Below, in pieces: positions 26,390 to 45,111 of a stretch of DNA of 45,111 bases. The position numbers and the translations under genes are program-made. The notes under the pieces were generated by a model that did no database searches, was not told the origin of the DNA, and was given only the letters and a program-made list of their open reading frames with translations. Position 1 is the stretch's first letter. Every line of letters begins with the position of its first letter. Source of the stretch: Candidatus Aquitaenariimonas noxiae. GTDB taxonomy: Bacteria > Omnitrophota > Gorgyraeia > Aquitaenariimonadales > Aquitaenariimonadaceae. The stretch spans positions 1-45,111 of the forward strand of contig PEWV01000020.1 in the NCBI GenBank assembly GCA_002780005.1, written 5' to 3'.

Positions 26390-27033
26390 AGCTAATAGAG
26401 AGCCCTGCCGCTGGCGGGGTGAGCCAAAAGCAGCTTAAGCGCAGCACCATTGGAAATTTTTCCATAGCGGCGCTAAAAGGGCGAATCTCTTTTTTAAGAG
26501 GAAAAATAGATTTAGAAGCGCTACTTAAAAAACCGCCCATAGACATTAAGGGCATAAATAAGGTATTAATAGTATTGGTTATTTCACTTTCGCTATACCT
26601 CGGCGGGGATTTTATAATCTCTATGGCGAACTTGAACAAGATACCAGAATTCAAGCTTGGGGAAAATATAAAGAAAACGAACGGGGGATTGCCTGAAGGT
26701 TCGGTGTTGAACAAGGGCTCCTACTACTTAGAGAAGGCTACGTCGAGAGATATCTTTAAATTCTATCAGGCGGCCCAGCCCAAACCGTCAGCTGAGGCAG
26801 CTACTAAAAAAGAAGAGCGGGCTGAACCGAAAATAAACGATCTTATAAGAGATTTCAAACTTGTAGGCATAGCGTGGTCGGATAACCCTGACGCCATGAT
26901 CGAAGACGGCAATACAAAGCAGATACATTTTCTTAAACGAGGCGATAAGATAGGGAAGGACATAAAGGTAGAAGCTATATTCAAGGACAAGGTTATCTTA
27001 TCAAGCGAAGGCGAAGAGGCGGAGCTTAGGTAA
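26347..27033 (+). CDS. GspC/PilP-like inner-membrane protein of a secretin system
   Basis: This 228-residue protein has a basic cytoplasmic tail (1-70), one membrane helix (about 72-92, KVLIVLVISLSLYLGGDFII), a linker rich in Pro, Ala, Glu and Lys (143-163), and a C-terminal region (165-228) with FKLVGIAWSDNPDAMIED, IHFLKRGDKI and KVEAIFKDKVILSS. This is the pattern of the HR domain of GspC and the related PilP domain, which binds the N0 domain of the secretin in the periplasm. It overlaps the ATPase gene by 43 bp and lies 2 bp before the secretin. GspC proteins are about 270-300 residues; this one lacks a PDZ or coiled coil at its end. Confidence 0.82.
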   Translation: MAQERDSTPEKQLLKLIESPAAGGVSQKQLKRSTIGNFSIAALKGRISFLRGKIDLEALLKKPPIDIKGINKVLIVLVISLSLYLGGDFIISMANLNKIPEFKLGENIKKTNGGLPEGSVLNKGSYYLEKATSRDIFKFYQAAQPKPSAEAATKKEERAEPKINDLIRDFKLVGIAWSDNPDAMIEDGNTKQIHFLKRGDKIGKDIKVEAIFKDKVILSSEGEEAELR

Positions 27034-28835: not shown

Positions 28836-28858
28836 TTCTCTATAGTGGATGGTATAAT
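28828..28858 (+). promoter_or_regulatory. possible promoter for the coiled-coil gene pair
   Basis: TTGACT (28828-28833) and a perfect TATAAT (28853-28858) flank a 19-base spacer. The -35 overlaps the last codons and stop of the secretin gene. The long spacer is unusual for plain sigma70 promoters but is known for MerR-activated ones. The next gene starts 22 bases after the -10 box. Confidence 0.45.
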
Positions 28859-28880
28859 ATATATGTTATGGGAGAATGCC

Positions 28881-29975
28881 ATGAATAAAAAAATAATACT
28901 TATATTATCAAGCATTACACTTACCCTGTTTTTTATAAGATCGGACCTTGCGCGCGCCCTGTCATTAGATGATATAAATCCCGTGAAAGCCAAAGAATAT
29001 AGAACGCAGCTCGAAGAAAAGAATAAAGAATATGATGAATTACTCAAGCTGAACAAAAAACTCCAAGAGCTCATAAAAGACCTGCAGGACAAAAATGCAG
29101 TGCTAGCCAGAGATTACGAGAAACTCAAAATTGACCAGGAGAACATTCTAATTCAATCGAGAAAGCTATTGGAAGAGAAGAAGACATTTACCGTGAGCAC
29201 AGATGCTTATAATAAGCTTGCCGAAGAGAGGGAGGCATTAAACAATAAGGAAGAAGCAATGGCTCAGGAGAACAAGACACTCCAACAAAATATAGATCAG
29301 TTGAAAATGCATTTTAGTGAACTTACAGCGGAAGCGGGCCGATTAGAAAAGCTTTTGGCCGAAGAGCAGTCTGACGAAGGCGCAAAAGTTAAAAAGATCG
29401 AAGAAGGACTTAAGATCAAATATTCCAGCCTGGGCAACGAAGTTGATTTGCTTAAAAAAGAAAATTCAAAGCTGAGTAAAGAGCTAGTTAACGCCAGAAA
29501 AAGCACGACGCTTTTAGAGCGTGGAAAAGTAAAATTAGAACAGGAAGGCCAGGTATTAAAAAACGATTTAGGCAGGCTGGAGGCCGAGCACAAGGAGACA
29601 GAAGAGCAGAATAGATTTTATTCTAGCGAGGTAAAGGAATTTCCTTCGAAGTTTACCGATATGGCGCGTCATAACCAAGAGCTTGTCAGAGAAACCGCGG
29701 ATATGCATTATAATTTGGGCGTTTTTTATGTAAAAAGTAAAGAATATAGGCGCGCTACAAGGGAATTCGAGAAAGTTCTTGAATTGAAGCCCGAACACCC
29801 TTACGCAAATTACAATTTAGGCTATATATATGCGGAGTACTTAGTGGATAGGCCGTTAGCTATTAAGTATTTCAAAAACTACCTCAATTATGCCCCTGAC
29901 GCTAAGGACGCGGACTGGGTAAGGAGGTATATCCTGACTTGGGAGGCGTGGCAGGGCAAGGAGATGCCGAAGTGA
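28881..29975 (+). CDS. exported coiled-coil protein with C-terminal TPR repeats
   Basis: With the ATG at 28881 (GGAG seven bases upstream) this is a 364-residue protein with a signal peptide (IILILSSITLTLFFIRSD, likely cut after ARA). A charged coiled coil runs from about residue 30 to 265 with many Glu/Lys heptads (QLEEKNKEYDELLKLNKKLQ). Near the end are TPR units: DMHYNLGVFYVKSKEYRRAT followed by FEKVLELKPEHPYANYNLGY. The TPR part suggests protein binding in the periplasm. It overlaps the next gene by GTGA, so it probably acts with the giant coiled-coil protein. An ATG-less extension to 28845 is possible but has no binding site. Confidence 0.82.
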   Translation: MNKKIILILSSITLTLFFIRSDLARALSLDDINPVKAKEYRTQLEEKNKEYDELLKLNKKLQELIKDLQDKNAVLARDYEKLKIDQENILIQSRKLLEEKKTFTVSTDAYNKLAEEREALNNKEEAMAQENKTLQQNIDQLKMHFSELTAEAGRLEKLLAEEQSDEGAKVKKIEEGLKIKYSSLGNEVDLLKKENSKLSKELVNARKSTTLLERGKVKLEQEGQVLKNDLGRLEAEHKETEEQNRFYSSEVKEFPSKFTDMARHNQELVRETADMHYNLGVFYVKSKEYRRATREFEKVLELKPEHPYANYNLGYIYAEYLVDRPLAIKYFKNYLNYAPDAKDADWVRRYILTWEAWQGKEMPK

Positions 29976-32900
29976 AAAAACAGAAAACTTTATTAATTTT
30001 GCCCGCACTTTTAATATTTATAGAGATCATATTTCTTCACAGTTACACCTTAGCGCAGGTTGGTAGCGTCGCTGCAAAAGAGATTATTCCTATAGAAAAA
30101 AATCACGTTTATATGCTTCCCCTGGGCGCGCAAGACGGAGCTAAAAGAGGGAATATCGTCGAAATACTTCGCGATGGAGTTAAGGTCGCCGAAGCTAAGC
30201 TGATATCTGTAATTAATGAGAGCTCTGTAGCAGAAGTTGTTACTATGTTTGACGTAAAGGAGATATTGGGCTCTGACACGGTTCGGATATCGCCCAAAAG
30301 CCCTGCCGAGGAAGCAGCGCAGATAGAAAAAGAAAAATTGGGAACGCCTTATGAAGAATCCTCCGCGGAAACTGTCATCCAGGAAGAAATGCCCGCGAGG
30401 GAAATACCCCTTAAACAAGTAAGCGATAAATTAGAATATCTCACTTATCAGATAACGACTTTTAAGGACCAGCTGAAGAGCAAAGAGACAGCGATAAATT
30501 CTCTCACTAAAGAAAAGGCTGAACTTAAAAGCCTTCTTGACAAAAAAGATCAGAAAGAAAATGAATTAGAAAAAGAGATCGCGCACTTAAAGGACGCTGT
30601 CAAAGCCATGCAAACCGCGGATTCGGAAAAGATCAGAACGATCAAAGAGCCTCTTCAGGCCAAGATAACATCCTTGGAGACCGAACTGCAGGGATTAAAA
30701 AATTCTACCAGCAGCCAAATGACGGGGCTGGCGAATAAAATAAAGGACAATGAATCTCTTGCCAGTGTTCTTTCCAGGGAGAAGTCCAATCTCGAAAGCG
30801 TTGTAGAGCAAAAAAATCAAAAGATCGCAACCCTGGAGGATGCAATTTCAGATATGAAAAAAGAGCTGAGCAACGCGAAGGTTTCGGTTGATGAGCAGCT
30901 CAATCAGGCTAAAGATCCCCTTAGGGAAAGGATAAATAGGCTTACGGTAGAAATGGCAGCCTTGGAAGACGACAGCAAGGACAAAGTCAACACCTTAAGA
31001 AACCAGTACAAAGAAGAGCTTGATCTAAAAGAGCAGCAATGGCAAAGCAAACTTGAGGCGCAAAGATTGGAATCCGAGCATAATCTTGTCCAACAGCAAC
31101 AAGAATTAGAGAAAAAATTTACTTTTGAACGGACTCAGATGCAGGATAAGATAAGCGCGCAAGAGAGCATCATAGCGAGCATTAAGACCGAGCTGAATGC
31201 CACGTCTACTTCAGTTCCTGAGAAGGTAAGGGCAGCCGAACAGCCGCTTCAGACGAGAATAGATAAATTGACAGCCGATCTTGCCTCGGCCCAGGAAGAT
31301 TCACAGAAGAGAATCAACCTGATAAGGAACCAAGCAAATCAAGACCTCGTTGCGAAAGACCAACAGTGGCAGGCCAAGCTGGATTCTCTAAAAAAAGACT
31401 ATGAGCAGAAATTGATTGATCAACAAGGTCTTTTGGCCAAGCAATCTGCTTTGCAGCAGGACCAGGACCAGGCAAAAATAAGTTCGTTAGAAAAAAGCCT
31501 AAAAAATTTAACGGATACAAGTACAAGCCAGTCGGCATCCTATAACGAGCAAGCAAAGAATAAGGATTTAATGATAGCTACCCTGGCCAAAGAAAAGTCC
31601 GACCTCAGAGGCATCCTTGACCAGAGGGAACAGAAGATAAAGGAATTAGACGGCCTTGTAAACGCCCTTAAAGATGAGGTCAAGTCTACCAAGGATTCGA
31701 TGGCAGAAAAAATGAAATCTGCCGAACAGCCGCTTCAGGAACGGATAGCACAGCTTAATTCCGAGATTACATCGGCGCAGGAGCAGCATCAGAAACAGCT
31801 CGTGTCGTTTAAAGACCAGTCGAGCCAGATTGTTGCCGCAAAAGACCAAGAATGGCAGGGTAAATTAAACAGTTTAAAACAGGAATATGAGCAAAAGCTG
31901 CTTCTCGAGCAGCAGGCGTCTGAAAAAGCGATCGCCCTAGTAAAGGATGAGCTCGCATCAGTGAAGGTGTCGGTTGACAACAAAGTGCAATTAGAGAAAG
32001 AGCCGCTTCAGCAGAGAGTTAATCAGTTGGCAGCTGAGTTAGTATCATTGCAAACGCAATCACAAAATCAGATAGGCATAATAAAAAATCAATCTGCAAA
32101 AGATGTTGCTTTGAAAGAGCAGGAATGGCAGGCAAAGTTAGACGCGATAAAAAAAGACTATGAGCAGAAACTCACCCAGCAGCAAGATGCCGCGAATAAA
32201 CAGATCGTTGCTCTGAACGGACAACTTAGCTCGGCAAATTCGTCCGTAGCCGATAAGGTTAGATTGGCTAAAGAGCCTATGCAAGAGCGTATAGACCAAT
32301 TGACGTCCCAGTTGACCGGTATAACAAAAGAATCCCAGGATAAGATCAGCCTTGCGGAATCGAAATACCAGGAAGCGCTCACGGCCAGGGATAAAGAATG
32401 GCAGGCAAGATTAGACACGCTCGTGAAAGATTATGAACAAAAATCAGCCCGCGAGCAGGATGTCTCGAAAAAGCAAATCGCCCTGCTGGAAGGTGAGCTT
32501 AATTCTGTGATGAGCGCCATTCCAAAAAAGGTGAAATTAGTTCAGCAGCCGCTTCAGCAAAAGATTGACCAATTAACCGCTGAGCTATCTAGCGCAACAA
32601 AGGAATCTCAGGACAGGATCGCGCTGGCTGAAAGCAATGCCCAACAAAATATTGCTGCCAAGGACAAGGAATGGCAGGCAAAAATAGAGCAGATCACAAA
32701 AGGATATGAACAGAAATTGGCCCAGCGCGAGGCAGATTCCGCAAAACAGTTTGATGCCCAGCAGAATCAGGCAAATCTTAAAATAATATCCCTGGAAAGC
32801 GCCGTTAAAGAGGCTGGAAGCAGCGCGGATGCGCAGATAACCGTATTAAAATCGCAGATCAAAGATAAAGAAGCCGCTCTTGCTTCTCTTGTGAGCGACA

Positions 32901-35900
32901 AATCCAAACTGGACAACTCGCTTAAGCAAAATCAACAAACAATCACTGAATTGCAGAATACGGTTACAAGTTTAAAAGAGCATGTGAAGTCCACAATGGA
33001 CTCCATGCCGAGCAAAATAGAATCGGCAAAGCAGCCTCTCCAGCAAAAGATCGATCAGCTGACAACAGAACTTGCCTCGGCAAAGAAAACATACGATGAA
33101 AGCATAGCCTCGGCCCAGAAAAAGGCCCAGGATGATATGTCACTGAACGCCAAAGCTTGGCAGGACAAGCTCGACGCAATAACTAAGGATTATGAACAAA
33201 AGTTAGCCCTTCAAAAAGATGATGCAACCAAACAGCTTAGCATGCAGCAAAGCCAGATGCAGGGCAATATCGCAGCGCTGCAGGAGTCTAATGCAAAATT
33301 AAACGAGGACCTCAAGGCAACGCTTGCTTCAATTCCTGAAAAAATACGGTTAGCCAAGGAGCCGCTTCAGCAAAGGATAGATCAATTAACCTCTGATGCA
33401 GCTTCGATGGACAAGGAATATCAGGGGAAGGTCAGCCTTGCCGAAAGCAAAGCCAAAGAAGAATCTGCGGCGAAGGAAAAAGAATGGCAGGCCGAACTTG
33501 ATACGTTAGTGAAAGATTATGAACAGAAGCTCGCCATGCAAAAAAATGAAAGCGCCAAACAGCTTACAGCCCAACAAAGCCAGACGCAGGGCAATATCAC
33601 AGCCTTGCAGGGCACTATTAACAAATTAAACGAAGAAGTCAATGCTGCAAGAAATTCTTTGCAAGAGCAGGTGAATTCAGCGAAGCAACCCCTTCAAGAA
33701 AGGGTGGATCAGCTGACAACAGAACTTGCCGCGGCAAAGAAAACATACGATGAAAGCATAGCCTCGGCCCAGAAAAAGGCCCAGGATGATATATCGCTGA
33801 ACGCGAAAACTTGGCAGGACAAGCTCGACGCGACAATAAAGACTTATGAACAAAAGCTAGCTATACAAAAAGACGACTCAGCAAAGCAATTCGGTTTGCA
33901 ACAGAACCAGCTGCAGGCGCGCATAACCACCCTGGAACGGGAATTGAAGGATCTGGGCAGCAGCTCGGATAATCAAGTAACCGCCATAAAAAAGCAGTTA
34001 AACGAGAAAGATACGCTCATATCATCGGTTACGAACGAAAACGCAAGCCTTAAAGGCGTTGTAAGCCAAAGAGAACAAAAACTTACATCGTTGCAGGATA
34101 GCTTGACAACCTTGAATAGCGAAATATCTGCTAACGCGCAGCAGTGGCAGAGCAGATTAGATGCCCTTGTGAAAGAGTATGAACAGAGGCTGGCGCAGCA
34201 AAGAGAGGATTCCGCAAAAGAGCTCGCGCTTGAAAGCGGAAAGGCCCAGGAGAAAATAGCTTCCCTGGAAGAGACAGTCAAAAATTTAAAAGGTACTGCT
34301 GACAGCCAGGTAGCTTCGCTAGGAAATAAATTAGCCGAAAAAGAAAATCTTGTAGCCTCACTAACAAAGGAAAAAACAGACACAGAAGCCGCTCTCAGGT
34401 TAAAAGAGGGGCAGCTTATTTCCCTGCAGGATACCATCTCTACCTTAAATAAAGACATGTCATCAGGTAACCAGCAGTGGCAGGTTAAATTCGACGCCCT
34501 AAAGCAGTCATATGAACAAAAACTGGCACAAGCCGCGCAAGACTCAGAAAAAGCGTTCGCCGCTCAAAAGGACGAGGCCCAGAGCAAGATCACATCCTCA
34601 GAAACCGAACTGGCATCTCTTAAATCTAACGCTGCAGCCCAGATAAGCTCTCTTAGCGCTAAATTGTCCGAAAAAGAAGCCCTCATTAGCTCCTTGACGA
34701 AGGAGAAAGATAATCTTAAAAGCGAGCGAGACGCGCGCGACAAGAGAGTCGCGGAATTGCAAAATACCGTAGAGGCTTTAAAAGAAGAAATGAATGCCAC
34801 AGTTGCTTCAGCCGAAAACAAAATGCAGCTTACCAAACAACCATTACAGGAAAGGATAGACAGGCTGACTTCGGAAATAGCGTCGCTAAGTAATGATTAT
34901 CAAACAAAACTGGCCGCTATCGAGAAGCAGTCACAGGACAAGATCGAGGCCATTAACAAGGATTACCAGGATAAATTTGTTAAGCAGCAGCAAGACTCCA
35001 ATGCAAATTTAGCCGTCCAGAAAAATGAGATGCAGGAAAGGATGGCATTTTTGGTATCAGACCTTGCCAGGGCCAAGGAAGTATCAGACAAATTAGCTTC
35101 TCAACTAAATGAAAAGGATTCTTTGATAACATCGCTTAACGGAGAGGTTTCGAAATTGACGGCTAATTTAAATCAGAAGGAAACAGAGGCCCTAGCCCTA
35201 AAGAATACGATTTCAAACCTTGAGGTCCAAGTAAAATCCACTACGGAATCAGTTGACGGTAAGGTGAAGTCTGCAGAAGAGCCTCTTAAGGATAGGCTAA
35301 ACCAGCTTACGTCGGACCTGTCAGCAATAGACGGTAATTATAAAAGCAAGCTAGCCTACTCAGAAAAGCAATGGCAGGATAAGTTAGACACAACTACTAA
35401 GGAATATGAGGCAAAACTGGCAAAACAAACCGAAGATGCCAACGCAGCGCTTGCGACCGAAAGAAGCCAGATGCAGGAAAGAACAACGTTTTTAGTTACG
35501 GACCTTGCTAAATCAAAGGATATGGTAGATAAATTGTCAGCGCAATTGAGGGATAAGGAAGCTACTCTCGCTTCGCTAAATACTAGCACTAGCTCAAACG
35601 AAGAAAAAGTGTCCAGCCTGCAGAAAACAGTCGATAGCCTGAATAAGGAGCTCGCATCAAGGGACCAAGAATGGCAGGAAAAGCTTGATGCACTAAAACA
35701 GGAATATGAGCAGAAGATATCCGCGAAAGAGGCGGACCTGGCCAGTCAGGGAGTTCAAGAGCAAAGCCAGATGCAGGAAAGAATAGCTCTGTTAGAAAAA
35801 GAACTTAAAGATTTAGGCGGTATAACAGACAGCCGTATAGCTTCGTTTAAGACTCAACTCAAAGACAAAGATTCGGTTATTGCCGCACTCAGTGATGAAA

Positions 35901-37951
35901 AAAATAGCGTAAGGAGCTCTGCTTCTGAAAAAGATTCAAAAATAGCAGAGTTGCAGAGTGCCGTTTCAGGCCTGCAGGCGGACTTGAATACCGCTAGCAG
36001 TACGGTTGCGGATAAGGCGAGATTGAGCGAGCAGGCGCTGCAGGAGCAAATAAAACAAATTGGCTCCGAGCGGGATGCCTTGACTACCGAATTAAACAGC
36101 CTTAAAAGAGAATTGCCGGATAAGGTCACTGCTATAGAACAAGAATGGCGCAGCAAGATGGAGGGGATGACGAGGCAGTATGAAGAAAAACTGGCAAAAC
36201 AACAAGAATCTGTCGATTCCGGAGCTATTGCCGAAAAGAACCAAATGCAGGAAAGAATGTCCTACCTTATAAAAGACCTTGCATCGGCCAAGGACGCATT
36301 AAATAAGGCGTCTACGCAATTACAGGATAGGGATTCTACCATATCTTTGCTGAGAGAAGAAAAAACGAACTTAGAGAGCGGTACCAGTCAGAAAGATAAG
36401 AAGATAACCGAACTGCAAAACGCAGTTTATGAACTGGATAAGAAAATAAAGTCTTCCGAACTTTTAACGGCAACAACGCCAGAACCCGTAGACAGAATTA
36501 TGCAGGAAAAAGTGGCTAATCTCGAGGAAGAGAAGACCAATCTCCAAAACGTAATTGAGTTTAAGAATAAAAAAATAAATGAACTTGAAAAAACCGGCGC
36601 AGCAAAGGAAGGCCCTTCGGATCAGGCCTTAAAAGAGAAGATAGCTCAACTGACAAATGAACTTGATGCGGCAAAAAGAGATGCCGAAACGAGGATTGCG
36701 GCTTCAGGCAAACAGTGGAGCGCTAAATTAGACGAGTTGACACGAGGGTACGAAGAGAAGCTTGTGAGTAAGTACCCCATGTCTGAAGGCGAAAAAAATA
36801 TAGTGAGTAAACTATCGACCCAGGTAAAAGAGAGAAACTCGAGCATAGAGGCGCTTACTAAAGAGAAAACAGACCTAGAAAACAGCGTGAATGAAAAAGA
36901 TAAAAAAATAGCCGAATTGCAGTATTCTATTTTATCCTTGAGGGAAGAACTAAGAACGCCTAAATCCTCGATAGGGCAAAAAGAAGCTCTGCCGGGGCAG
37001 GGTTTAGAGGTAAAACCCGATCAGGTTGATGCAGAATTGGCCGCAGTAAAAAAAGACGCTGACGCCAAAATTGCCTTAGTGAATAAACAATGGCAAGCTA
37101 AGCTAGAGTCTATAACAAAGGAATACGAGGCCAAGTTGGCCCAATTGAAGCAAAGAGCAGGTTCAATGACAGAAGATGATTTATTGCTGGCCAAAATAGA
37201 GATGTTCAAGAAGCCCCTTCAAGACAAGATAACCGAGTTAAATAACGAAATAGCAGCGTTAAAAACACGAGAAAGCGAATTATCAAAAAAGAGTGAGATC
37301 GGCGAAAAAGACCTTCTTGCGAAAGATAAGGAATGGCAGGATAAGCTTTCAGCCGTTCAGGAAGGCTTTATAGCTGAAGAGAATAAATGGCAGGAAAAAG
37401 CCACGTCAGAACTTAAAGGCGAACTTGACGCAGTGAAAGAGCGCGATAGGGCCATAGAGATCCTTAAAAGCGAAATCGCAAAAAGAGACCAGAAAATAAA
37501 AGATTTAGAAGAAGTCTCTTCAAGCTTAAAGAAAGAGGCAGCTCCGGCGCAAGAGATGAAAGAGGTCTCCCCAGCCGTAGAGCAGCCGGAAGTTTCCAGT
37601 TCGGTCCAAGGCCAAAAAAATGTTGCATCAGAAAAAGAAAAATGGTATGATAGCGACAAAGAACTGCAGGAATACCGTACAAGGATCAAACAGCTTGTTT
37701 TAGATAATATCATTAAATCAATAGATTTTGCGAAATATAGAGGCAAGGTAGGGTCTGTAAGGATTGAATTTGAATTATTTTCAAACGGCTTCCTGAAAGA
37801 AGAGCCGACATTCTACGGAACGGACGATGAAACTTTGATGGACAGCCTGTACGAATGTTTCAGAAAATCGTTACCGTTCCCTGAGTTCCCGAAAAGCCTC
37901 AAAGAAAGTTCACAGCGTTTTACTTTAGTAGTTTCTTTCGGAAAGAAGTAG
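29972..37951 (+). CDS. giant coiled-coil envelope protein with C-terminal TonB/TolA-like domain
   Basis: This 2659-residue protein starts at GTG 29972 (AAGGAG eight bases upstream, GTGA overlap with the previous stop). Its parts are a hydrophobic N-terminus (LLILPALLIFIEIIFLHSYT), either a signal peptide cut after TLA or an anchor; a small beta domain at about 35-110 (VYMLPLGAQDGAKRGNIVEI); a coiled coil from about 150 to 2520; and a C-terminal domain from about 2557 (YRTRIKQLVLDNIIKSIDFA, VGSVRIEFELFSNGFL, LPFPEFPKSL) with the pattern of TonB/TolA C-terminal domains. The rod is built of repeats that each contain a PLQxRIxxLT segment and a WQxKLDxxxKDYEQKL segment. E. coli TolA has the same order in about 420 residues. 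It probably links inner membrane or periplasm to an outer-membrane partner such as the secretin; the target is unknown. Confidence 0.85.
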   Translation: MKKQKTLLILPALLIFIEIIFLHSYTLAQVGSVAAKEIIPIEKNHVYMLPLGAQDGAKRGNIVEILRDGVKVAEAKLISVINESSVAEVVTMFDVKEILGSDTVRISPKSPAEEAAQIEKEKLGTPYEESSAETVIQEEMPAREIPLKQVSDKLEYLTYQITTFKDQLKSKETAINSLTKEKAELKSLLDKKDQKENELEKEIAHLKDAVKAMQTADSEKIRTIKEPLQAKITSLETELQGLKNSTSSQMTGLANKIKDNESLASVLSREKSNLESVVEQKNQKIATLEDAISDMKKELSNAKVSVDEQLNQAKDPLRERINRLTVEMAALEDDSKDKVNTLRNQYKEELDLKEQQWQSKLEAQRLESEHNLVQQQQELEKKFTFERTQMQDKISAQESIIASIKTELNATSTSVPEKVRAAEQPLQTRIDKLTADLASAQEDSQKRINLIRNQANQDLVAKDQQWQAKLDSLKKDYEQKLIDQQGLLAKQSALQQDQDQAKISSLEKSLKNLTDTSTSQSASYNEQAKNKDLMIATLAKEKSDLRGILDQREQKIKELDGLVNALKDEVKSTKDSMAEKMKSAEQPLQERIAQLNSEITSAQEQHQKQLVSFKDQSSQIVAAKDQEWQGKLNSLKQEYEQKLLLEQQASEKAIALVKDELASVKVSVDNKVQLEKEPLQQRVNQLAAELVSLQTQSQNQIGIIKNQSAKDVALKEQEWQAKLDAIKKDYEQKLTQQQDAANKQIVALNGQLSSANSSVADKVRLAKEPMQERIDQLTSQLTGITKESQDKISLAESKYQEALTARDKEWQARLDTLVKDYEQKSAREQDVSKKQIALLEGELNSVMSAIPKKVKLVQQPLQQKIDQLTAELSSATKESQDRIALAESNAQQNIAAKDKEWQAKIEQITKGYEQKLAQREADSAKQFDAQQNQANLKIISLESAVKEAGSSADAQITVLKSQIKDKEAALASLVSDKSKLDNSLKQNQQTITELQNTVTSLKEHVKSTMDSMPSKIESAKQPLQQKIDQLTTELASAKKTYDESIASAQKKAQDDMSLNAKAWQDKLDAITKDYEQKLALQKDDATKQLSMQQSQMQGNIAALQESNAKLNEDLKATLASIPEKIRLAKEPLQQRIDQLTSDAASMDKEYQGKVSLAESKAKEESAAKEKEWQAELDTLVKDYEQKLAMQKNESAKQLTAQQSQTQGNITALQGTINKLNEEVNAARNSLQEQVNSAKQPLQERVDQLTTELAAAKKTYDESIASAQKKAQDDISLNAKTWQDKLDATIKTYEQKLAIQKDDSAKQFGLQQNQLQARITTLERELKDLGSSSDNQVTAIKKQLNEKDTLISSVTNENASLKGVVSQREQKLTSLQDSLTTLNSEISANAQQWQSRLDALVKEYEQRLAQQREDSAKELALESGKAQEKIASLEETVKNLKGTADSQVASLGNKLAEKENLVASLTKEKTDTEAALRLKEGQLISLQDTISTLNKDMSSGNQQWQVKFDALKQSYEQKLAQAAQDSEKAFAAQKDEAQSKITSSETELASLKSNAAAQISSLSAKLSEKEALISSLTKEKDNLKSERDARDKRVAELQNTVEALKEEMNATVASAENKMQLTKQPLQERIDRLTSEIASLSNDYQTKLAAIEKQSQDKIEAINKDYQDKFVKQQQDSNANLAVQKNEMQERMAFLVSDLARAKEVSDKLASQLNEKDSLITSLNGEVSKLTANLNQKETEALALKNTISNLEVQVKSTTESVDGKVKSAEEPLKDRLNQLTSDLSAIDGNYKSKLAYSEKQWQDKLDTTTKEYEAKLAKQTEDANAALATERSQMQERTTFLVTDLAKSKDMVDKLSAQLRDKEATLASLNTSTSSNEEKVSSLQKTVDSLNKELASRDQEWQEKLDALKQEYEQKISAKEADLASQGVQEQSQMQERIALLEKELKDLGGITDSRIASFKTQLKDKDSVIAALSDEKNSVRSSASEKDSKIAELQSAVSGLQADLNTASSTVADKARLSEQALQEQIKQIGSERDALTTELNSLKRELPDKVTAIEQEWRSKMEGMTRQYEEKLAKQQESVDSGAIAEKNQMQERMSYLIKDLASAKDALNKASTQLQDRDSTISLLREEKTNLESGTSQKDKKITELQNAVYELDKKIKSSELLTATTPEPVDRIMQEKVANLEEEKTNLQNVIEFKNKKINELEKTGAAKEGPSDQALKEKIAQLTNELDAAKRDAETRIAASGKQWSAKLDELTRGYEEKLVSKYPMSEGEKNIVSKLSTQVKERNSSIEALTKEKTDLENSVNEKDKKIAELQYSILSLREELRTPKSSIGQKEALPGQGLEVKPDQVDAELAAVKKDADAKIALVNKQWQAKLESITKEYEAKLAQLKQRAGSMTEDDLLLAKIEMFKKPLQDKITELNNEIAALKTRESELSKKSEIGEKDLLAKDKEWQDKLSAVQEGFIAEENKWQEKATSELKGELDAVKERDRAIEILKSEIAKRDQKIKDLEEVSSSLKKEAAPAQEMKEVSPAVEQPEVSSSVQGQKNVASEKEKWYDSDKELQEYRTRIKQLVLDNIIKSIDFAKYRGKVGSVRIEFELFSNGFLKEEPTFYGTDDETLMDSLYECFRKSLPFPEFPKSLKESSQRFTLVVSFGKK
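30647..37400 (+). repeat. internal repeat array of the coiled-coil giant
   Basis: About 15 copies of a (K/E/Q)PLQxRIxxLT segment and about 18 of a WQxKLDxxxKxYEQKL segment alternate. Measured starts of the PLQ-type segment: 30647, 30914, 31241, 31727, 32000, 32273, 32546, 33032, 33359, 33686, 34838, 35279. Steps in codons are 89, 109, 162, 91, 91, 91, 162, 109, 109, 384, 147. The 91-codon step equals 13 heptads. The 162-codon steps carry an extra insert with a TSL/DKE-rich segment. Confidence 0.85.
33053..33831 (+). repeat. recent duplication inside the coiled-coil giant
   Basis: The DNA at 33053-33177 recurs at 33707-33831 with about five differences counted by eye over 125 bases, an offset of 654 bp (218 codons, twice the 109-codon unit). 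The rest of the array is much more diverged, so this pair is young. Confidence 0.85.
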
Positions 37952-37967: not shown

Positions 37968-38573
37968 ATGACAAAAAAGATTTTTTACGCAGGAATCATA
38001 TTTAGCTTATTATGTTTTGGCGCTTGTATCAGCATAAGTAGTATTTTAGCGAAGGATAATAATAAAACTGCCGAACCCGAACCTATGGAACTGGATCAAA
38101 CGAGCTGGGAAATTGTCATTACCCCTATAACCAGCGCTCCGGGCAAGGAACCGCAAACCGTAAGCGATAATTTGATATTCGAGGACAAGAAGTTTAGTTC
38201 AGAAAATTTTACAAACAACGGATTTGACGCCACAAACTATTCACTGTCCCTTAAAGACGATGGCGCTACTGTTTGCGAAACAATGCAAACTAAGGATAAA
38301 GACACTATCTTCTGGCGCATGGAAGTAATGGGAGATGGCATGAAAGGTATTATAAGTAAGGTATATATTAGCGAAAACAAATCCGAAGATTTCAGGTTCA
38401 GCGGAAAGCTAACAAGCGGTACCCTAAAACCAAGGGTAAAGAGGATAGTGGTGGAAAGAATGCCGCCAGAAGATATGCGTATGCTGGGCCTTAAGGTACC
38501 TGAGCCAAAGCCCAGAAGTTTTTGGCAAAGACTGATCGGAAAGATCAAGAGGTTGTTAGGGCTGGGCAAGTAA
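37968..38573 (+). CDS. exported protein with an unrecognised domain shared with the transposase fusion
   Basis: This 201-residue protein has a signal peptide (IFYAGIIFSLLCFGAC); Cys20 follows FGA and might be lipidated, although the lipobox is imperfect. Residues 47-150 form a domain with TSWEIVIT, LIFEDKKFSSENFTNNGFDA, CETMQTKD, IFWRMEVMGDGMKGIIS and DFRFSG. The same order of motifs occurs in the C-terminal part (326-427) of the transposase fusion at 39017-40321, so the domains are homologous. The C-terminus is basic and amphipathic (FWQRLIGKIKRLLGLGK). It follows the giant gene by 16 bp with GGAGGG before ATG. I recognise no named family; a secreted beta-rich binding domain is a guess. Confidence 0.82.
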   Translation: MTKKIFYAGIIFSLLCFGACISISSILAKDNNKTAEPEPMELDQTSWEIVITPITSAPGKEPQTVSDNLIFEDKKFSSENFTNNGFDATNYSLSLKDDGATVCETMQTKDKDTIFWRMEVMGDGMKGIISKVYISENKSEDFRFSGKLTSGTLKPRVKRIVVERMPPEDMRMLGLKVPEPKPRSFWQRLIGKIKRLLGLGK

Positions 38574-38610
38574 CTTTTGTAAAAATTTAATTCTTAACAG
38601 CGCATAAAGA

Positions 38611-38644
38611 AACCCGTAAGAACGCGAATTCTTACGGGTTTTTT
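38611..38644 (+). terminator. strong intrinsic terminator after the envelope operon
   Basis: A 12-bp perfect stem (38611-38622 with 38629-38640), loop CGCGAA, runs into TTTTTT. It ends the transcript of the giant coiled-coil and 201-residue genes and separates it from the riboswitch operon. Confidence 0.93.
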
Positions 38645-38658
38645 GCTTTTTTGAATAC

Positions 38659-38677
38659 AAAAGTGCCAGGCACTTTT
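38659..38677. repeat. REP-like palindrome R1
   Basis: AAAAGTGCC-A-GGCACTTTT, 9-bp arms around one base. The same core with T at the centre recurs at 38943-38959, and its arms recur in swapped order in the terminator at 38904-38924. Such palindromes next to a REP-associated transposase gene are probably its recognition sites. Confidence 0.7.
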
Positions 38678-38727: not shown

Positions 38728-38755
38728 TTGACTTTTTCAAAAAATATGCTATACT
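38728..38755 (+). promoter_or_regulatory. sigma70-type promoter of the riboswitch operon
   Basis: TTGACT (38728-38733) and TATACT (38750-38755) with a 16-base spacer. Transcription would start near 38762, about 30 bases before the riboswitch aptamer. Confidence 0.72.
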
Positions 38756-38882: not shown

Positions 38883-38903
38883 GTTAGCGAAAAATAATAC
38901 TCG

Positions 38904-38932
38904 ATCCAGGCACTGTGCCTGGATTTTTTTTT
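38904..38932 (+). terminator. riboswitch expression platform terminator, also a swapped-arm palindrome (R2)
   Basis: ATCCAGGCAC-T-GTGCCTGGAT (38904-38924) has 10-bp arms and is followed by a run of T, so it should terminate transcription 20 bases after the aptamer. Its arms are the GGCAC and GTGCC half-sites of the R1 and R3 palindromes in swapped order. Whether ligand turns it on or off cannot be read by eye. Confidence 0.8.
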
Positions 38933-38942
38933 GGAAATTTTG

Positions 38943-38992
38943 AAAGTGCCTGGCACTTTAAGCTTCAAGAAAGTAAAACGACAGGCACTTTA
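38943..38992. repeat. REP-like palindrome R3 and half-site R4
   Basis: AAAGTGCC-T-GGCACTTT (38943-38959) is a perfect palindrome. A half-site CAGGCACTTT follows at 38982-38992. With R1 they bracket the promoter and riboswitch just upstream of the transposase-fusion gene. Confidence 0.68.
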
Positions 38993-39016
38993 AAGAAAAG
39001 AAGGGAAAAGCAGAAG

Positions 39017-40321
39017 ATGCCAAGGTTGCCGAGAATTTACATCGAAGGGGCGCTCTACTACATAACCTCAAGAGGCGGAATTAATCAAAACATTTTCATA
39101 GATGTTTCTGATTACCATGAATATCTCTCCCTAATAGACAAATATAAAAAACAATACGGTTTTAAACTATTCTCTTACGTTCTATTACCCACTCATCTGC
39201 ACATGCTCGTAGAATTGCGGAACAACGTAGGTGTTTCCAAGATCATGCATGATGTCAATTCTCTTTATACCAAGATCTATAATAACCGCTACGCCAAAGG
39301 AGGCCATCTTTTCCAGGAACGGTTCAGCGTGACGCTTGCCGAAAAAGAAAGCCACCTTTTGCAGCTTACCAGGTACATTCATCTGAATCCTAAACGTCTC
39401 GGTACGGTAGAAAACCCCAGCGACTACCCATACTCAAGCTATGCTCAATATCTGGATGCCACAAAAAGAAATTATCCCGAAATGAGGGATGAAGTGGAAG
39501 AAGCATTTTATATCCTAAAAGGCAGGGAAGAGGCCCTCGCGGAATATACTAAAAAAGCCACGCCGAAAGAAACAAACGAGATCGAACGGCTTCTCCATAA
39601 GAAAAAGATCTTAGGCTCAAAGGCGTTTGAAGAAAATGTGAGATCAGCGATCGAAGAAAGCGCCAAACAGCAAAAGCAAAGACAAGTCATTCCAAAAAAA
39701 GCCCAAATACTGTACTTAGTTTTAGGCGGGGCCATCTTTTTTGTTTTAACCATCGGCATCGTTTATTTGTACAAACAGAATTCAGGGTTAAAAAACAGAT
39801 ATAACGAGACGATGACGCACTACAGCGATATTCTGGAGATGCTCAGGCGCGAGAGGAACAGGGCCCTTACTGAAAACAGGAATGCCGAAGAATATTTGTG
39901 GAAGATACGCCTGACCGAAAAAGCGCTTCAGGAATTAAAGAGCGAGAAAAAAAGCGTAATACAGGCCGGGAAAGATATAGACGGCTGCGCGTGGAAGATC
40001 AGGCTCGCGCAAATAGACGGGCCAAAAAAAGATTTTATAGATCTCGATACGATTATTTTCGAGGATAATTACATCAGTTCTGAACAATTGAGGCAGGAAG
40101 GGTTTAGCACCACGCGCTATTCGAAAAAAGTCTTGAAGAACGGCAACACCGGCTGGGAAACAATCCAGGCGAACGGAACGGGCGAAACAGCGTTCTGGCG
40201 CGGAGAGTGGGACGGCAGGGTCATGAGAGGCGTACTAAGCAGGCGTTCAAGTGACGGCGCAGTCAGGGATTTTTCTTTCGCGGCAGTCGGTGGAAAAATA
40301 AAACAGGAGGTTTTGCGATGA
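39017..40321 (+). CDS. REP-associated tyrosine transposase domain fused to a membrane helix and an extracytoplasmic domain
   Basis: This 434-residue protein starts with the RAYT pattern MPRLPRIYIEGALYYITSRG. The HUH motif is His60-Leu-His62 in LLPTHLHMLVEL. The catalytic Tyr120 sits in LTRYIHLNPKRLG, the place matching Tyr115 of E. coli TnpA-REP. A segment ERLLHKKKILGSKAFEENV (190-208) is usual for longer RAYTs. Then comes a membrane helix at 231-252 (ILYLVLGGAIFFVLTIGIVY), a short coiled coil, and residues 326-427 homologous to the 201-residue exported protein upstream (CAWKIRLAQID, IIFEDNYISSEQL, WETIQANG, FWRGEWDG, MRGVLS). RAYTs are normally soluble proteins of 150-320 residues. The active-site residues look intact. 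ATG 39017 is chosen by homology, with AAGGG upstream. It follows a c-di-GMP riboswitch and overlaps the next gene by ATGA. Confidence 0.9.
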   Translation: MPRLPRIYIEGALYYITSRGGINQNIFIDVSDYHEYLSLIDKYKKQYGFKLFSYVLLPTHLHMLVELRNNVGVSKIMHDVNSLYTKIYNNRYAKGGHLFQERFSVTLAEKESHLLQLTRYIHLNPKRLGTVENPSDYPYSSYAQYLDATKRNYPEMRDEVEEAFYILKGREEALAEYTKKATPKETNEIERLLHKKKILGSKAFEENVRSAIEESAKQQKQRQVIPKKAQILYLVLGGAIFFVLTIGIVYLYKQNSGLKNRYNETMTHYSDILEMLRRERNRALTENRNAEEYLWKIRLTEKALQELKSEKKSVIQAGKDIDGCAWKIRLAQIDGPKKDFIDLDTIIFEDNYISSEQLRQEGFSTTRYSKKVLKNGNTGWETIQANGTGETAFWRGEWDGRVMRGVLSRRSSDGAVRDFSFAAVGGKIKQEVLR

Positions 40322-40761
40322 AGAGATTATTCGGAATTTTATTAATTTCGATTTTTGCCTTGACGGCAACGAGCTTTAAGGCATTCGGCGCTGACGAAGT
40401 TTTTGCGACACACAAAATTCTCATAAAAGTCCAGCCAAACTATATTGTGATGACTGCCGGCGCGAAGACAATTCCTGTTGATTACGCCAGGATAAGGTCC
40501 ACGGGCTTAAGGGAAGCTAATAAAACGTACAACGCGGTAAGCATTGAACGGGTTTATACGCTTCAGGAAAAAGTAGTGGACGGTAAACCCGTTATAGTGG
40601 ACGGTGAAACCATTCATGAAGAAGTCGAGACCCCTGATACTTTCATTCTGACATTGCAGGATTATAGGGATGAGCAAGGTAACCTTGTCGAGATCGATAT
40701 AGATAAAGCAGTATTGGCCTATACGGGAGTATCGGTAGTTATTCTAGCGCAAAAGCAGTAA
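40318..40761 (+). CDS. small exported protein of unknown function
   Basis: This 147-residue protein has a signal peptide (LFGILLISIFALTATSFKAF, likely cut after FGA). The mature part is predicted beta-rich and acidic: HKILIKVQPNYIVMTAGAKT, then VYTLQEKVVDGKPVIVDGET and DTFILTLQDYRDEQ. I recognise no family. It overlaps the transposase-fusion stop by ATGA and lies 10 bp before the giant surface protein, so all three are probably translated from one riboswitch-controlled mRNA. It might help export or anchor the surface protein; this is inference. Confidence 0.85.
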   Translation: MKRLFGILLISIFALTATSFKAFGADEVFATHKILIKVQPNYIVMTAGAKTIPVDYARIRSTGLREANKTYNAVSIERVYTLQEKVVDGKPVIVDGETIHEEVETPDTFILTLQDYRDEQGNLVEIDIDKAVLAYTGVSVVILAQKQ

Positions 40762-40771
40762 GAAAGGGAAT

Positions 40772-43700
40772 ATGAATCCGGGCAGTTGGCATAGCGCGCT
40801 GGGAAGCGAAACTGAAAATCCAAAAAAAAGGATAGCGGGGAAGTTTTTTATTTTTTGCGCTGTTACTTTTCTTCTGGCAGGAAGCATGCTCATATTAAAA
40901 GCCGGAAATTCTTTTGCCGAAACGCGCGTATTTTATAACGAAATTGATGCTGCCAGCTGCACCACGATCAATGAGGCTAACGATAACCCGGACGGCAGCT
41001 GCCATCTTGCGGACGGAGGTGTAGACACCACAAAGGCGTTCATTATTTACACTAACACTGCGAATGACACAACGCCGTCCCTTCTTCGCTTCACAGCGAA
41101 GTTTGTAGATGCTCATAGCCTCGAGTTTCAGCGCAACAGTAACGATACCGACGCCAGCCAGATAATACGTTACTATGTCATAGAGTCAGACGCTTTCGAG
41201 GTGTATTGGGCCGAGCATGACATGGCCGCAGATGACTGGTCTGACACAGAAGTCCTTACCAGCCTTATTGATATAAAACCAAATAAATCTTTTATAGTCT
41301 ACGGCGTTAGGAGCGCTAGTATTTCCGCAAATAACTATGCCGGAACCGTGCTTGTCGGGGCGAATTTGGAGTATACGGAATCAGTCCCGCCAGCAGCCGC
41401 TGACCAGATACAATTTTACCGTAAAGACGTTTCTGGCAAGACCGAAGAAGCTATAACAATTTCATATTTTGTGGTTACCGTAAAAGACGATTCCTGGGTC
41501 CAGCAGGGGAAAGCTGCGGCCGCGGCAAACGATTACATGGTTAGCGATGACCTCGCTACAGCTGTTGACCGCTCAAAGGCATTTCTTATATTCAACTTCT
41601 GTAACACTGACTATAGCGTTGACCAGCGATGGCGCGGCGCCATAACTTCAGACCTCCAGGTCGGCTTTAACAAGAGAGCCAAAGGAGGAACAACTGATAT
41701 TTATTATTACTGTGTTGAGCTTGGTACTTTAGGGTTTTCGGAAGGCGGCGAGGGATTGCAGAAAGATACAGTCGACGCAGTTGCTAACTGGGATTTCCCC
41801 CTCGCGAAGGATTTCGGAAATACAGCCAGGCGTTTTTCGCTGATTTCCCAGGACTGCGTCGGAACAGGCTCTCAAAACGATAGAATAAGCAGCGCGGTAG
41901 GATTTCTCGATGTTGACGGAGCTGAAAAATTGCGCGTTACGCGAAGAGATAATACACAGGCATCTGTCACTGACTATTTTGCCGTCTATATGGAACCGAT
42001 GAAGCTATTTACGCCGAACGGCGGTGAAAACTGGAAGTGCGGAACAGAATACGATATAACTTGGTATTGTCCCTGGGATGGAAGTAAAGGTATAGCTAAG
42101 GTGGACGTACTATTATCCGAAGACGCAGGAGCTACCTGGCCAGTTACTATAGCCAGCGATGTTGATAATGACCCGGACAACGGCGTCACGACGCTTCCGT
42201 GGACTATACCGTCGAATACATTGGGGCTTATAGGCGCCAACAGAAAAGTAGGTATTGTGATAGCCGGAGGAACCATAAACGCAGACTCTGCCCTACACTA
42301 CAACTGCGATATCTCGGATAGCGGTTTCACAATTATAGGAGACCTGCAGCTCACTCAGCCTGATACCCCAGGTACAAAATGGATTTATGACCATGAATAT
42401 AACATTAAATGGAAAGCGCACGGTCATAATACCGATATGGGAAACGTGAGACTGCGATATAGTATTAACAGCGGTTCTGATTATCCTGCTGATCAAATCA
42501 TAGCTACGGTAACACCGCATTATAACGAGGTGGCCGGCGTGTCTATATATCCTTGGACCGTAAAGGAACCGGCACCAGGATATCCTACAGTCGACTGCAT
42601 CGTTGGGTCTAACCTCAGGATGCTGGTGGAACAGGTAAGCGATCCGACTAATGTCTTCGATGAAGGTGAATACGATTTTCGTGTCGATCCGGAGGTAAAA
42701 CTACTTTTCCCTAATGCCACAGGGGTTGGTGACGATAAGACTATTTGGGAAATAGGAGAGCCAATGTACATTGAATGGGAGCCTCATGGTCTTATGGGGA
42801 CGAACAAAGTTAGCGTTGAGATAACCAGAAACCAGGGAGGTAACTGGTCGGCAGTGGAAGCCGAGGCATATAATATCGCGTATAATTATAACGGAGGGTC
42901 CGGCGCATGTACTTACCCGTGGTCTGTTGAAGGACCGGCGACCAGCGGAGCAGACGCGAAGATCAGGGTAAAAAGCGAAGATTATTCAGGTATTGCAGGA
43001 GAATCTCTGAATTATTTCAAAATACAGGAGACAATCCACGTTGATATACCAAGCCTCACCGAGATAGTGTGGCGCGCAGGCGCGCAAAATACAATACAGT
43101 GGACCGTAAGGGGCCTTACCAGCGCCAATTTTGTTAAGATTTACTACTCGCTTGATGGCGGCACCAATTATACTTTTCTCATTCAGAGGCCGGCCCAGGC
43201 TGGAAACGATCCTGAAGCGTCGAGCACTTACGGGTGGACCCCGGATTCCTCTCATTTAACATCAAAGGCAAAGATCAAGGTTACGCGGGCTGATCAGGAG
43301 AATATCGCGGATGAAAGCGATAATATATTCCAGATAAAAGGAAATGTTAGTGTAACCAAACCAACCCTCAATGAAGTTATCCCTATAGGGAAACAATATA
43401 CTATCACCTGGGATGTGACAGCCGGCGTGACAGGAACCGCTAATATATACCTATATAAACCTAGCGTGGGGTATGAACCGATAGGAACGGCCCCGATCGA
43501 TCAGAAATACGCTTATTGGACTCCGACTCAAGCCCAGATGGGAGGCGGTCGCAAAATAATGGTTGCAAAACAGGGGGATGAAGATTTAGCTAAAGGAACA
43601 GCCGGCGAATCAGCCACATTTGATGTTAAAGCGGATCTTGATCTGACCTATCCTGATACCCAGTCCGGCCTTGCTTTTGATGCCGGTGGCAAACTCTATA

Positions 43701-45111
43701 TAAAATGGACCCCTAATCCTGAAAATTTTGGAGACGTAAAGGTAAATTATAATAAAGACGGCGGAAGCTTTACAGGAATAGGCCAAGTTGCGTCCAATTT
43801 TAAACCGAACGGCACTGACATAGGATTTGAATGGAATGATATACCTGAGGAAGCGGTCAGCAATGTTGTGAGGATAAGAATTGAACAAGTAGGTGAAGAT
43901 ACCAAGGTTTACGCTGTATCTCAGCAGTCGTTTAAAATCAGAGGGTCTATAACGATCACGCGGCCGGTCGGAGGCGAAAAGTGGCAGGCCGGCAAGACCG
44001 AAAATATCAGCTGGACAAAAAAAGGCAACTTAGGAAATGTAAAGATAAATTATTCGCTTAGCACGGGTAGTGCGGAATATACAGGCGACATAATAGGCGA
44101 GAGGGATAGCGCGAACTCCCCATACCCTTGGCCGATATCAACCTATATCTTTGACGATATAGAAACAGAGTTGCGAGCCACAGTAAGAATAAAAATTCAA
44201 TCCCTGCTATATCCGGATATAGCAAAGGAATCAAATGCATTTACGATCAAGAGCAGGTTCTATGGCTTAAGCTCAAATGTTGACAGCGGACAGAAATTAT
44301 ACGTAGGTGACCCGTGCAATATAACATGGATTACAGACGGATATAAGAAGTTGGTGGATGTCCTCTACAGCACTGACGGTGGCAGCCCGAATATTCCACT
44401 TGTGTCGAGTACGCCGAATATTAACGGCTTTGATCTCGAAACTGTGGGAGGCGTGCCGGACGCTCCAGGTAACCAGGTAAAATTTATGGTCCGCAGCACC
44501 CTTCAACCTAACGAGATATATGTAATGTCTTCTGGCAATAATATAATTGATAAAAAGACGTTGACAATAACGTATCCGGGCGGGGTAACTGAGCCGAATT
44601 TGGTACTTTACGCAGGCGACCCATATCTTATCAAGTGGACTTACTATGGGTCTATTTTAACAGTCAAACTTGATTATTCTATTAATAATGGGAGTGATTA
44701 CAATTATCCGATAGCAAGCGATGTTAATGTTGCAGGAGGCACAGGAGGTTATTCCTGGCCGGGTGGCGTTCCCAATCAGATAAAAGGTAAGGTTATAAAG
44801 GTAAGAGTTCAGGATATGGATAACGATACGGTAAACGGAGAGTCTGTTTACGCATTTTCAATAGCAGGGAAAATAAATCTTACGAAACCCGATGGCGGCG
44901 AGACCTGGTACGTAGGAACAAAAGGCGATATCAAGTGGACCCCTACAGGAAGCTATGACAGCGTAAAGATAGTATACACAGTTGACGGCGGCTCATGGAA
45001 GGACATAGCAATAGTTCCCGCAGGCACAAACGGCGTGCCGCAGACATATAGTGATTTCGTACCAGTACCTGTGGATATTACTACCACATTCAAAGTCAAA
45101 ATATTCGACCC
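40772..45111 (+). CDS. giant secreted surface protein with Ig-like repeats (5' part, runs off the window)
   Basis: The frame opens at ATG 40772 (AAGAAAGGGAA upstream) and has no stop up to the right edge, giving at least 1446 residues. A long signal peptide with a 20-residue basic n-region (KFFIFCAVTFLLAGSMLILK) is probably cut after NSFA at residue 49. Residues 50 to about 350 hold two related modules (TTKAFIIYTNT and RSKAFLIFNFC mark the same place). From residue 410 at least ten beta-sandwich repeats of about 100-115 residues follow, each opening like LFTPNGGENWKCGTEYDITW or LTKPDGGETWYVGTKGDIKW. These are the marks of the Kre9/KNH-like, Ser-Thr-rich GPI-anchored family repeats common in bacterial surface proteins. 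It is probably an adhesin or sheath protein under c-di-GMP control. Confidence 0.9.
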   Translation, partial: MNPGSWHSALGSETENPKKRIAGKFFIFCAVTFLLAGSMLILKAGNSFAETRVFYNEIDAASCTTINEANDNPDGSCHLADGGVDTTKAFIIYTNTANDTTPSLLRFTAKFVDAHSLEFQRNSNDTDASQIIRYYVIESDAFEVYWAEHDMAADDWSDTEVLTSLIDIKPNKSFIVYGVRSASISANNYAGTVLVGANLEYTESVPPAAADQIQFYRKDVSGKTEEAITISYFVVTVKDDSWVQQGKAAAAANDYMVSDDLATAVDRSKAFLIFNFCNTDYSVDQRWRGAITSDLQVGFNKRAKGGTTDIYYYCVELGTLGFSEGGEGLQKDTVDAVANWDFPLAKDFGNTARRFSLISQDCVGTGSQNDRISSAVGFLDVDGAEKLRVTRRDNTQASVTDYFAVYMEPMKLFTPNGGENWKCGTEYDITWYCPWDGSKGIAKVDVLLSEDAGATWPVTIASDVDNDPDNGVTTLPWTIPSNTLGLIGANRKVGIVIAGGTINADSALHYNCDISDSGFTIIGDLQLTQPDTPGTKWIYDHEYNIKWKAHGHNTDMGNVRLRYSINSGSDYPADQIIATVTPHYNEVAGVSIYPWTVKEPAPGYPTVDCIVGSNLRMLVEQVSDPTNVFDEGEYDFRVDPEVKLLFPNATGVGDDKTIWEIGEPMYIEWEPHGLMGTNKVSVEITRNQGGNWSAVEAEAYNIAYNYNGGSGACTYPWSVEGPATSGADAKIRVKSEDYSGIAGESLNYFKIQETIHVDIPSLTEIVWRAGAQNTIQWTVRGLTSANFVKIYYSLDGGTNYTFLIQRPAQAGNDPEASSTYGWTPDSSHLTSKAKIKVTRADQENIADESDNIFQIKGNVSVTKPTLNEVIPIGKQYTITWDVTAGVTGTANIYLYKPSVGYEPIGTAPIDQKYAYWTPTQAQMGGGRKIMVAKQGDEDLAKGTAGESATFDVKADLDLTYPDTQSGLAFDAGGKLYIKWTPNPENFGDVKVNYNKDGGSFTGIGQVASNFKPNGTDIGFEWNDIPEEAVSNVVRIRIEQVGEDTKVYAVSQQSFKIRGSITITRPVGGEKWQAGKTENISWTKKGNLGNVKINYSLSTGSAEYTGDIIGERDSANSPYPWPISTYIFDDIETELRATVRIKIQSLLYPDIAKESNAFTIKSRFYGLSSNVDSGQKLYVGDPCNITWITDGYKKLVDVLYSTDGGSPNIPLVSSTPNINGFDLETVGGVPDAPGNQVKFMVRSTLQPNEIYVMSSGNNIIDKKTLTITYPGGVTEPNLVLYAGDPYLIKWTYYGSILTVKLDYSINNGSDYNYPIASDVNVAGGTGGYSWPGGVPNQIKGKVIKVRVQDMDNDTVNGESVYAFSIAGKINLTKPDGGETWYVGTKGDIKWTPTGSYDSVKIVYTVDGGSWKDIAIVPAGTNGVPQTYSDFVPVPVDITTTFKVKIFD
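41999..45111 (+). repeat. array of at least ten Ig-like domain repeats
   Basis: Repeat starts, by the P-x-G-G-E/x-W-x-x-G...I-x-W pattern, lie near 41999, 42344, 42697, 43033, 43350, 43639, 43949, 44261, 44563 and 44873, a spacing of about 290-350 bp. The copies are strongly diverged in DNA, so the array is old. Confidence 0.8.

Follow-up and report, generated by a model that had tools for sequence, protein, structure and literature searches.

The window, by which we mean the whole stretch of 45,111 nucleotides analyzed here (contig PEWV01000020.1 of Candidatus Aquitaenariimonas noxiae, phylum Omnitrophota), carries on its forward strand an open reading frame (ORF) for a 434-residue protein (positions 39017–40321) in which a RAYT (TnpA-REP) domain is fused to a transmembrane (TM) helix, a coiled coil and a C-terminal barrel. 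Upstream of this gene runs a long series of ORFs, including one for a bacterial sugar transferase (23141) and then those for a histidine kinase and a response regulator. Further along the same strand lie genes for an AAA ATPase (25520–26389; AAA_22, presumably ExeA/GspA-like), a GspC-like inner-membrane protein (T2SSC; 26347–27033), a secretin of the PilQ/GspD/MshL type (27036–28835), a TPR protein conserved 3′ of the secretin (28845–29975) and a giant coiled-coil repeat protein of 2670 residues (29939–37951). The latter ends in what, by eye, looks like a TonB-C-type domain, and its homologs precede the barrel protein in four loci. Between it and the fusion gene is encoded an exported protein (37968–38573) whose residues 41–159 make up the same barrel domain as that of the fusion. 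On the 3′ side, a gene for a small exported protein of 147 residues (40318–40761) overlaps the end of the fusion gene and is followed by one for a giant exported protein of Ig-like (Kre9/KNH-like) repeats (40772–45111), which runs off the contig.

The RAYT domain occupies residues 1–215 of the fusion protein (39017–39661) and includes a long-form C-terminal extension (LGSxxF). The Pfam profile Y1_Tnp (PF01797) matches residues 32–122 (E = 2e-12), and the NCBIfam model REP_Tyr_transpos scores 79.9 bits, 0.1 under its cut-off of 80. The HUH motif H60-L-H62 (39194–39202), the nucleophile Tyr120 (39374–39376) and Asn124 are all in place. The top Foldseek match of the full-length AF2 model (pLDDT 75, 7 sequences) is 4er8, the E. 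coli TnpA-REP with a REP hairpin (E = 5.5e-7); no Pfam match to a winged-helix DNA-binding domain was found in the protein, which has the RAYT fold instead. By descent, the fusion protein is a RAYT. The TM helix follows at about residues 229–252 (39701–39772; Kyte-Doolittle 2.63), and in the model residues 228–317 are mostly helical, with a coiled coil at about residues 253–317 (39773–39967), ahead of the eight-strand barrel (residues 320–434; 39974–40318) defined by sequence match and AF2. An upstream GTG offers an alternative start, from which translation would run through the leader palindromes described below; it is unlikely to be the one used, given that orthologs start with M[PSAG]RxPR.

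The barrels of the fusion (residues 320–434) and of the exported protein (residues 41–159) share 34% identity (E = 6e-14), which rules out a chance likeness and bears out the homology proposed in the original prediction. In many orthologous loci the gene for the exported barrel protein lies directly 5′ of the fusion gene; in the window it is followed by a strong intrinsic terminator (38607–38650), so that the fusion gene probably belongs to a separate transcription unit. Modeled alone, the domain is predicted to fold into a small barrel with some eight strands (AF2 pLDDT 91). Searches of Pfam, NCBIfam and PDB sequences returned no match to it, and the structural matches given by Foldseek, calycin/lipocalin-like or of the FHbp-barrel type, were all weak (E of 0.03 and above) and none was significant, so no ligand can be named. 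The domain is also found close to the N-terminus in very large ORFs of 681 to more than 1700 residues (L113:6836–11998, L114:7044–9497, L115:3–2045 and L083:1623–4667) and thus represents a wider surface-protein module of Omnitrophota, one without a Pfam or NCBIfam name.

A profile of the junction and barrel matched 83 of the 384 genomes of the class. Four genomes from other classes in the phylum also gave matches, several of which had long open frames, and a contig search with six close sequences retrieved six loci, five from Candidatus Omnitrophota and one from an "uncultured bacterium". The order RAYT-TM-coil-barrel is kept in 42 genes across the 384 genomes, which rules out an assembly or frameshift artefact. 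Together with 11 RAYT-TM proteins lacking the barrel, these constitute the 53 membrane RAYTs that we gathered with their neighborhoods and that are spread over many Omnitrophota families. All 53 possess a hydrophobic, TM-like segment which, along with the Y1_Tnp match and the TnpA-REP fold, supports the membrane-tethered RAYT originally proposed. The two outcomes that would have undone that proposal, namely dissimilar barrels or a fusion confined to one assembly and broken by a sequencing error, were both looked for and neither was found. In a quick tree, built without bootstrap, of the 53 membrane RAYTs and 41 soluble ones from that class, a single branch splits the two groups (SH-aLRT 97), and the membrane/soluble label changes once, compared with 30.7 times in shuffles. 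The gene neighborhood recurs as well: the small exported protein is encoded 3′ of the fusion in most loci (cluster 2, in 30 loci), homologs of the giant Ig-like protein are encoded just 3′ of the fusion in 31 loci, and AAA ATPase, TPR protein and secretin genes are found near membrane RAYTs in 23, 21 and 19 loci, respectively. Other loci have polysaccharide-type genes, named by eye, in place of the secretin block, and PPIase/SurA-like chaperone or secretin genes lie near some.

The claim of a catalytically intact HUH enzyme stands for the residues of the window copy (H60/H62/Y120) but not for the family. The HxH motif and the tyrosine are complete in 21 of the 53 membrane RAYTs versus all 41 of their soluble counterparts in the class (Fisher p = 4e-11, in a test that ignores relatedness), and Asn124, at a position which, by comparison with IS200-type enzymes, we take to be a further metal ligand, is present in 45% of the former versus 100% of the latter. 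Thirty-two membrane RAYTs are thus catalytically broken, and at least eight changes of catalytic state are required on the RAYT tree. DNA cleavage therefore cannot be the conserved function of the family, and we rejected conserved catalysis as a family property; from the distribution of these residues, catalysis is dispensable in the membrane clade. The region corresponding to the DNA-contacting helix and strand of TnpA-REP (PMC8266576), residues 74–103 (39236–39325), to which we assign that role by homology, is highly conserved in the membrane clade, with a mean identity of 0.72 versus 0.52 in soluble RAYTs. S74, K86, E109 and H122 are among the positions that are near-invariant in the membrane clade and variable in soluble RAYTs. 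Of the options raised at the outset, that of a domesticated transposase is supported.

The leader of the fusion gene consists, in order, of a REP-like palindrome, a promoter candidate, a riboswitch, a terminator, a second palindrome, a degenerate copy of it and the start codon. Palindrome 1, AAAAGTGCCAGGCACTTTT (38659–38677), precedes the promoter-like site by about 50 bp; the latter is a sigma-70-like candidate TTGACT-16-TATACT (38728–38755) found by consensus scan alone. The aptamer of a c-di-GMP-I-GGC riboswitch (RF03167; 38795–38881) scores 61.4 bits against a gathering threshold of 59 (E = 3.2e-12), is located upstream of a gene and has behind it an intrinsic terminator, GATCCAGGCACTGTGCCTGGATT followed by a T run (38903–38932), which is the probable expression platform. 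Palindrome 2, AAAGTGCCTGGCACTTT (38943–38959), sits between this terminator and the start codon and is followed by the degenerate third copy, TAAAACGACAGGCACTTTAAA (38974–38994), which pairs to 81% with it. A c-di-GMP-I riboswitch above the Rfam cut-off precedes 41 of the 53 membrane RAYT genes on the same strand, mostly 90–400 nt from the start codon; eight of the remaining leaders have sub-threshold matches in the same place, and in one locus (L071) the riboswitch is one gene downstream. None was detected in 20 soluble-RAYT loci, which rules out the riboswitch as a general RAYT feature. One locus carries tandem barrel-less membrane RAYTs (L104:6035–6976 and 8324–9256), each with its own c-di-GMP riboswitch. 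The genome of the window contains five more c-di-GMP-I riboswitches (C69:4101, C69:4936, C73:18379, C56:35415 and C27:9551; loci L123–L125, L127 and L128), of which two are in tandem before exported proteins, one precedes a large exported protein and one a 254-residue protein that is GspC/PilP-like by eye. Such placements suggest a surface regulon under c-di-GMP control in this genome.

As single-stranded DNA, palindrome 2 folds into a hairpin of 7 bp with a 3-nt loop. Its 11-bp core, GTGCCWGGCAC, has two copies in the 1.93-Mb genome of the window, both in the leader of the fusion gene, which rules out a genome-wide REP there. The core occurs once per genome, again in the leader, in G095, G070, G036, G126, G078, G015, G072, G114, G352, G312 and G244, and is multi-copy in G068, G135, G259 and some others. 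In 42 of the 53 leaders, a AAAAGTGCCAGG-like site with at most two mismatches falls no more than 170 nt from the start codon (1.8 in shuffles), and 23 leaders have two such copies (0.02 in shuffles). Of the 24 barrel fusions with a broken catalytic site, 19 retain a perfect palindrome, and in loci L107, L108 and L110 the stem is altered on both sides, from GTGC/GCAC to GTAC/GTAC, and still folds. Where the hairpin is paired, the spacings between copies cluster near 21 and 31 bp, fitting two and three helical turns; the phasing has a resultant of 0.82 over 17 family-spacing pairs (p = 7e-4 for distinct spacings) in a test made after seeing the data and on few, partly related loci, and hints at double-stranded DNA bound on one face. 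The same palindrome accompanies soluble RAYTs of the sister branch, namely L141, where it occurs on both sides at about 40 bp, and L147. Its genome-wide copies number 25 in the genome with L141 (G029) and 138 in that with L161 and L147 (G018), as expected of a REP, and L161/L147 and L141 are apparently working REP/RAYT systems in Omnitrophota. In the window, palindrome 2 is located 3′ of the terminator and therefore should be transcribed; for the same reason, it cannot easily steer termination during its own transcription. The terminator stems and the palindrome have CCAGGC/GCCTGG in common.

The reading that we favor, with somewhat better than even confidence, is that a domesticated RAYT, tethered to the membrane, binds the hairpin and regulates an adhesion operon under c-di-GMP control, the binding and signaling being what we infer from the features above. 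An ancestral soluble, REP-using RAYT would have been domesticated once in Omnitrophota and become a single-pass membrane protein. Its RAYT domain would lie in the cytoplasm and mainly bind, as DNA or nascent RNA, the REP-like hairpin in its own leader, with cutting being dispensable. The C-terminal barrel would be periplasmic, alongside the exported barrel protein of the neighboring gene, and would most likely sense or bind some part of the secretion or cell-surface machinery. For such a location of the barrel, the charge distribution offers a weak positive-inside signal (K/R more numerous before the TM segment than after it in 34 of the 53 membrane RAYTs), and the exported barrel homolog argues more strongly. 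Through the leader riboswitch and terminator, c-di-GMP would switch on or off the transcription of an operon presumably composed of the genes for the membrane RAYT, the small exported protein and the giant Ig-repeat surface protein. The membrane RAYT bound just past the terminator would exert a periplasm-dependent feedback on this operon, control presumably running in that direction, in what would amount to ToxR/CadC-like logic on a transposase fold. Counting against a regulator are the retention of HxH and tyrosine in the window copy and 20 others, some of which may still cut DNA, and the presence of GspC-secretin genes near only part of the loci.

The strongest rival, although one that we regard as unlikely, is a structural tether, with the membrane RAYT holding the operon DNA, or the nascent mRNA of the giant protein by its leader hairpin, at the inner membrane. 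Synthesis of the giant protein would thereby be coupled to its export (transertion), and the barrel would dock on the secretion machinery. Such a role would suit the site that many genomes have as a single copy, in the leader of this very locus, the giant exported product encoded downstream, the PPIase/SurA-like chaperone or secretin genes near some loci and a palindrome placed where it should be transcribed. However, this anatomy fits a regulator equally, and a tether would have no need of a site so near the riboswitch terminator. Clearly less probable than a tether is that the RAYT domain binds no nucleic acid, being a recruited fold through which an envelope complex makes protein contacts on its cytoplasmic side, and that the palindrome is a fossil or a piece of the riboswitch expression platform. 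The lost catalysis, the adjoining envelope genes and the CCAGGC/GCCTGG shared by terminator stems and palindrome are in line with this possibility, yet it sits poorly with a DNA-contact segment more conserved than in active RAYTs, with a palindrome that catalytically broken copies retain, often doubled, with the paired stem changes in the L107/L108/L110 group and with the position of the palindrome after the terminator. Least probable of all, in our assessment, is a membrane-anchored active HUH nuclease that processes single-stranded DNA, or a still-mobile RAYT/REP pair fused by chance, which would account for the intact HxH, Tyr and Asn of the window copy, the HxH and Tyr of 20 others and the REP-like hairpins adjoining the gene but not for the repeated changes of catalytic state with 32 broken copies, the undispersed hairpin in most fusion genomes or the single clade with its recurrent neighborhood and riboswitch.

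RAYTs have long been suspected of domestication. The membrane RAYT lineage constitutes a natural experiment on what domestic job they could do, with the fold and the hairpin kept as the cutting chemistry decays, and it places an ex-transposase gene under a c-di-GMP riboswitch beside the gene for a giant surface protein. Because of the riboswitch, the leader palindromes and the GspC-secretin and giant-protein genes, we view this as a regulated locus and not a mere odd fusion. Collectively, the catalytic loss, the riboswitch, the giant-gene neighbor and a hairpin found mainly in the control region of its own gene suggest that the protein no longer works as a transposase and has taken on the role of a regulator or tether in cell attachment. 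We give about even chances to the broader proposition that these proteins are a new class of transmembrane, signal-responsive nucleic-acid-binding proteins, derived from a domesticated RAYT, that recognize a one-time REP hairpin in the riboswitch leader of their own genes and couple envelope state and c-di-GMP to the production of giant adhesins. If the regulator reading is true, the lineage would document how an enzyme of mobile elements can turn into a transmembrane regulator and would provide a candidate control circuit for the giant surface proteins of Omnitrophota.

With RAYT/TnpA-REP proteins the membrane RAYTs share the fold (4er8), the MPRxPR start, the YTKxxNxxYxxxGHLFxxRF region, the serine motif after the tyrosine and a REP-like hairpin beside the gene. 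Unlike them, they possess a membrane anchor, a coiled coil, a barrel and a c-di-GMP riboswitch, have repeatedly lost catalytic residues and, in many genomes, have a single-copy hairpin in the leader rather than dispersed REPs; the clade thus departs from RAYTs in conserved catalysis, in solubility and, in many genomes, in dispersed REPs. The long form of the RAYT domain resembles subclass 2.1 of Quentin et al. 2018 (PMC6006769), a resemblance and not a placement; the RAYTs described there carry C-terminal HTH/DnaA-like and subclass-specific domains, and the word "transmembrane" is absent from that paper. In the open-access literature searched, we came across no previous description of either a membrane RAYT or a riboswitch-RAYT pairing. 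Giant ORFs and type IV pilus loci have been described in Omnitrophota, the phylum to which the membrane RAYT loci also belong, and the giant extracellular proteins were proposed to be adhesins (Seymour et al. 2023, PMC10066038), in a text that uses neither the word "transposase" nor the word "riboswitch". The cap adhesin gene of B. thuringiensis (PMC4933901) is under a c-di-GMP riboswitch and thus resembles our loci, which are likewise led by such a riboswitch and contain a gene for a surface adhesion protein. What differs is that in our loci a domesticated transposase gene, with a candidate binding site of its own, is located between the riboswitch and the surface-protein gene. In the proposed model, the arrangement of a cytoplasmic DNA-binding domain, one TM helix and a periplasmic domain is that of ToxR/CadC. 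Having the RAYT fold and no winged helix, and showing no sequence relation to these proteins, the fusion protein is not a ToxR/CadC member, and it is proposed to target a REP-like hairpin or palindrome that its own gene carries in the leader.
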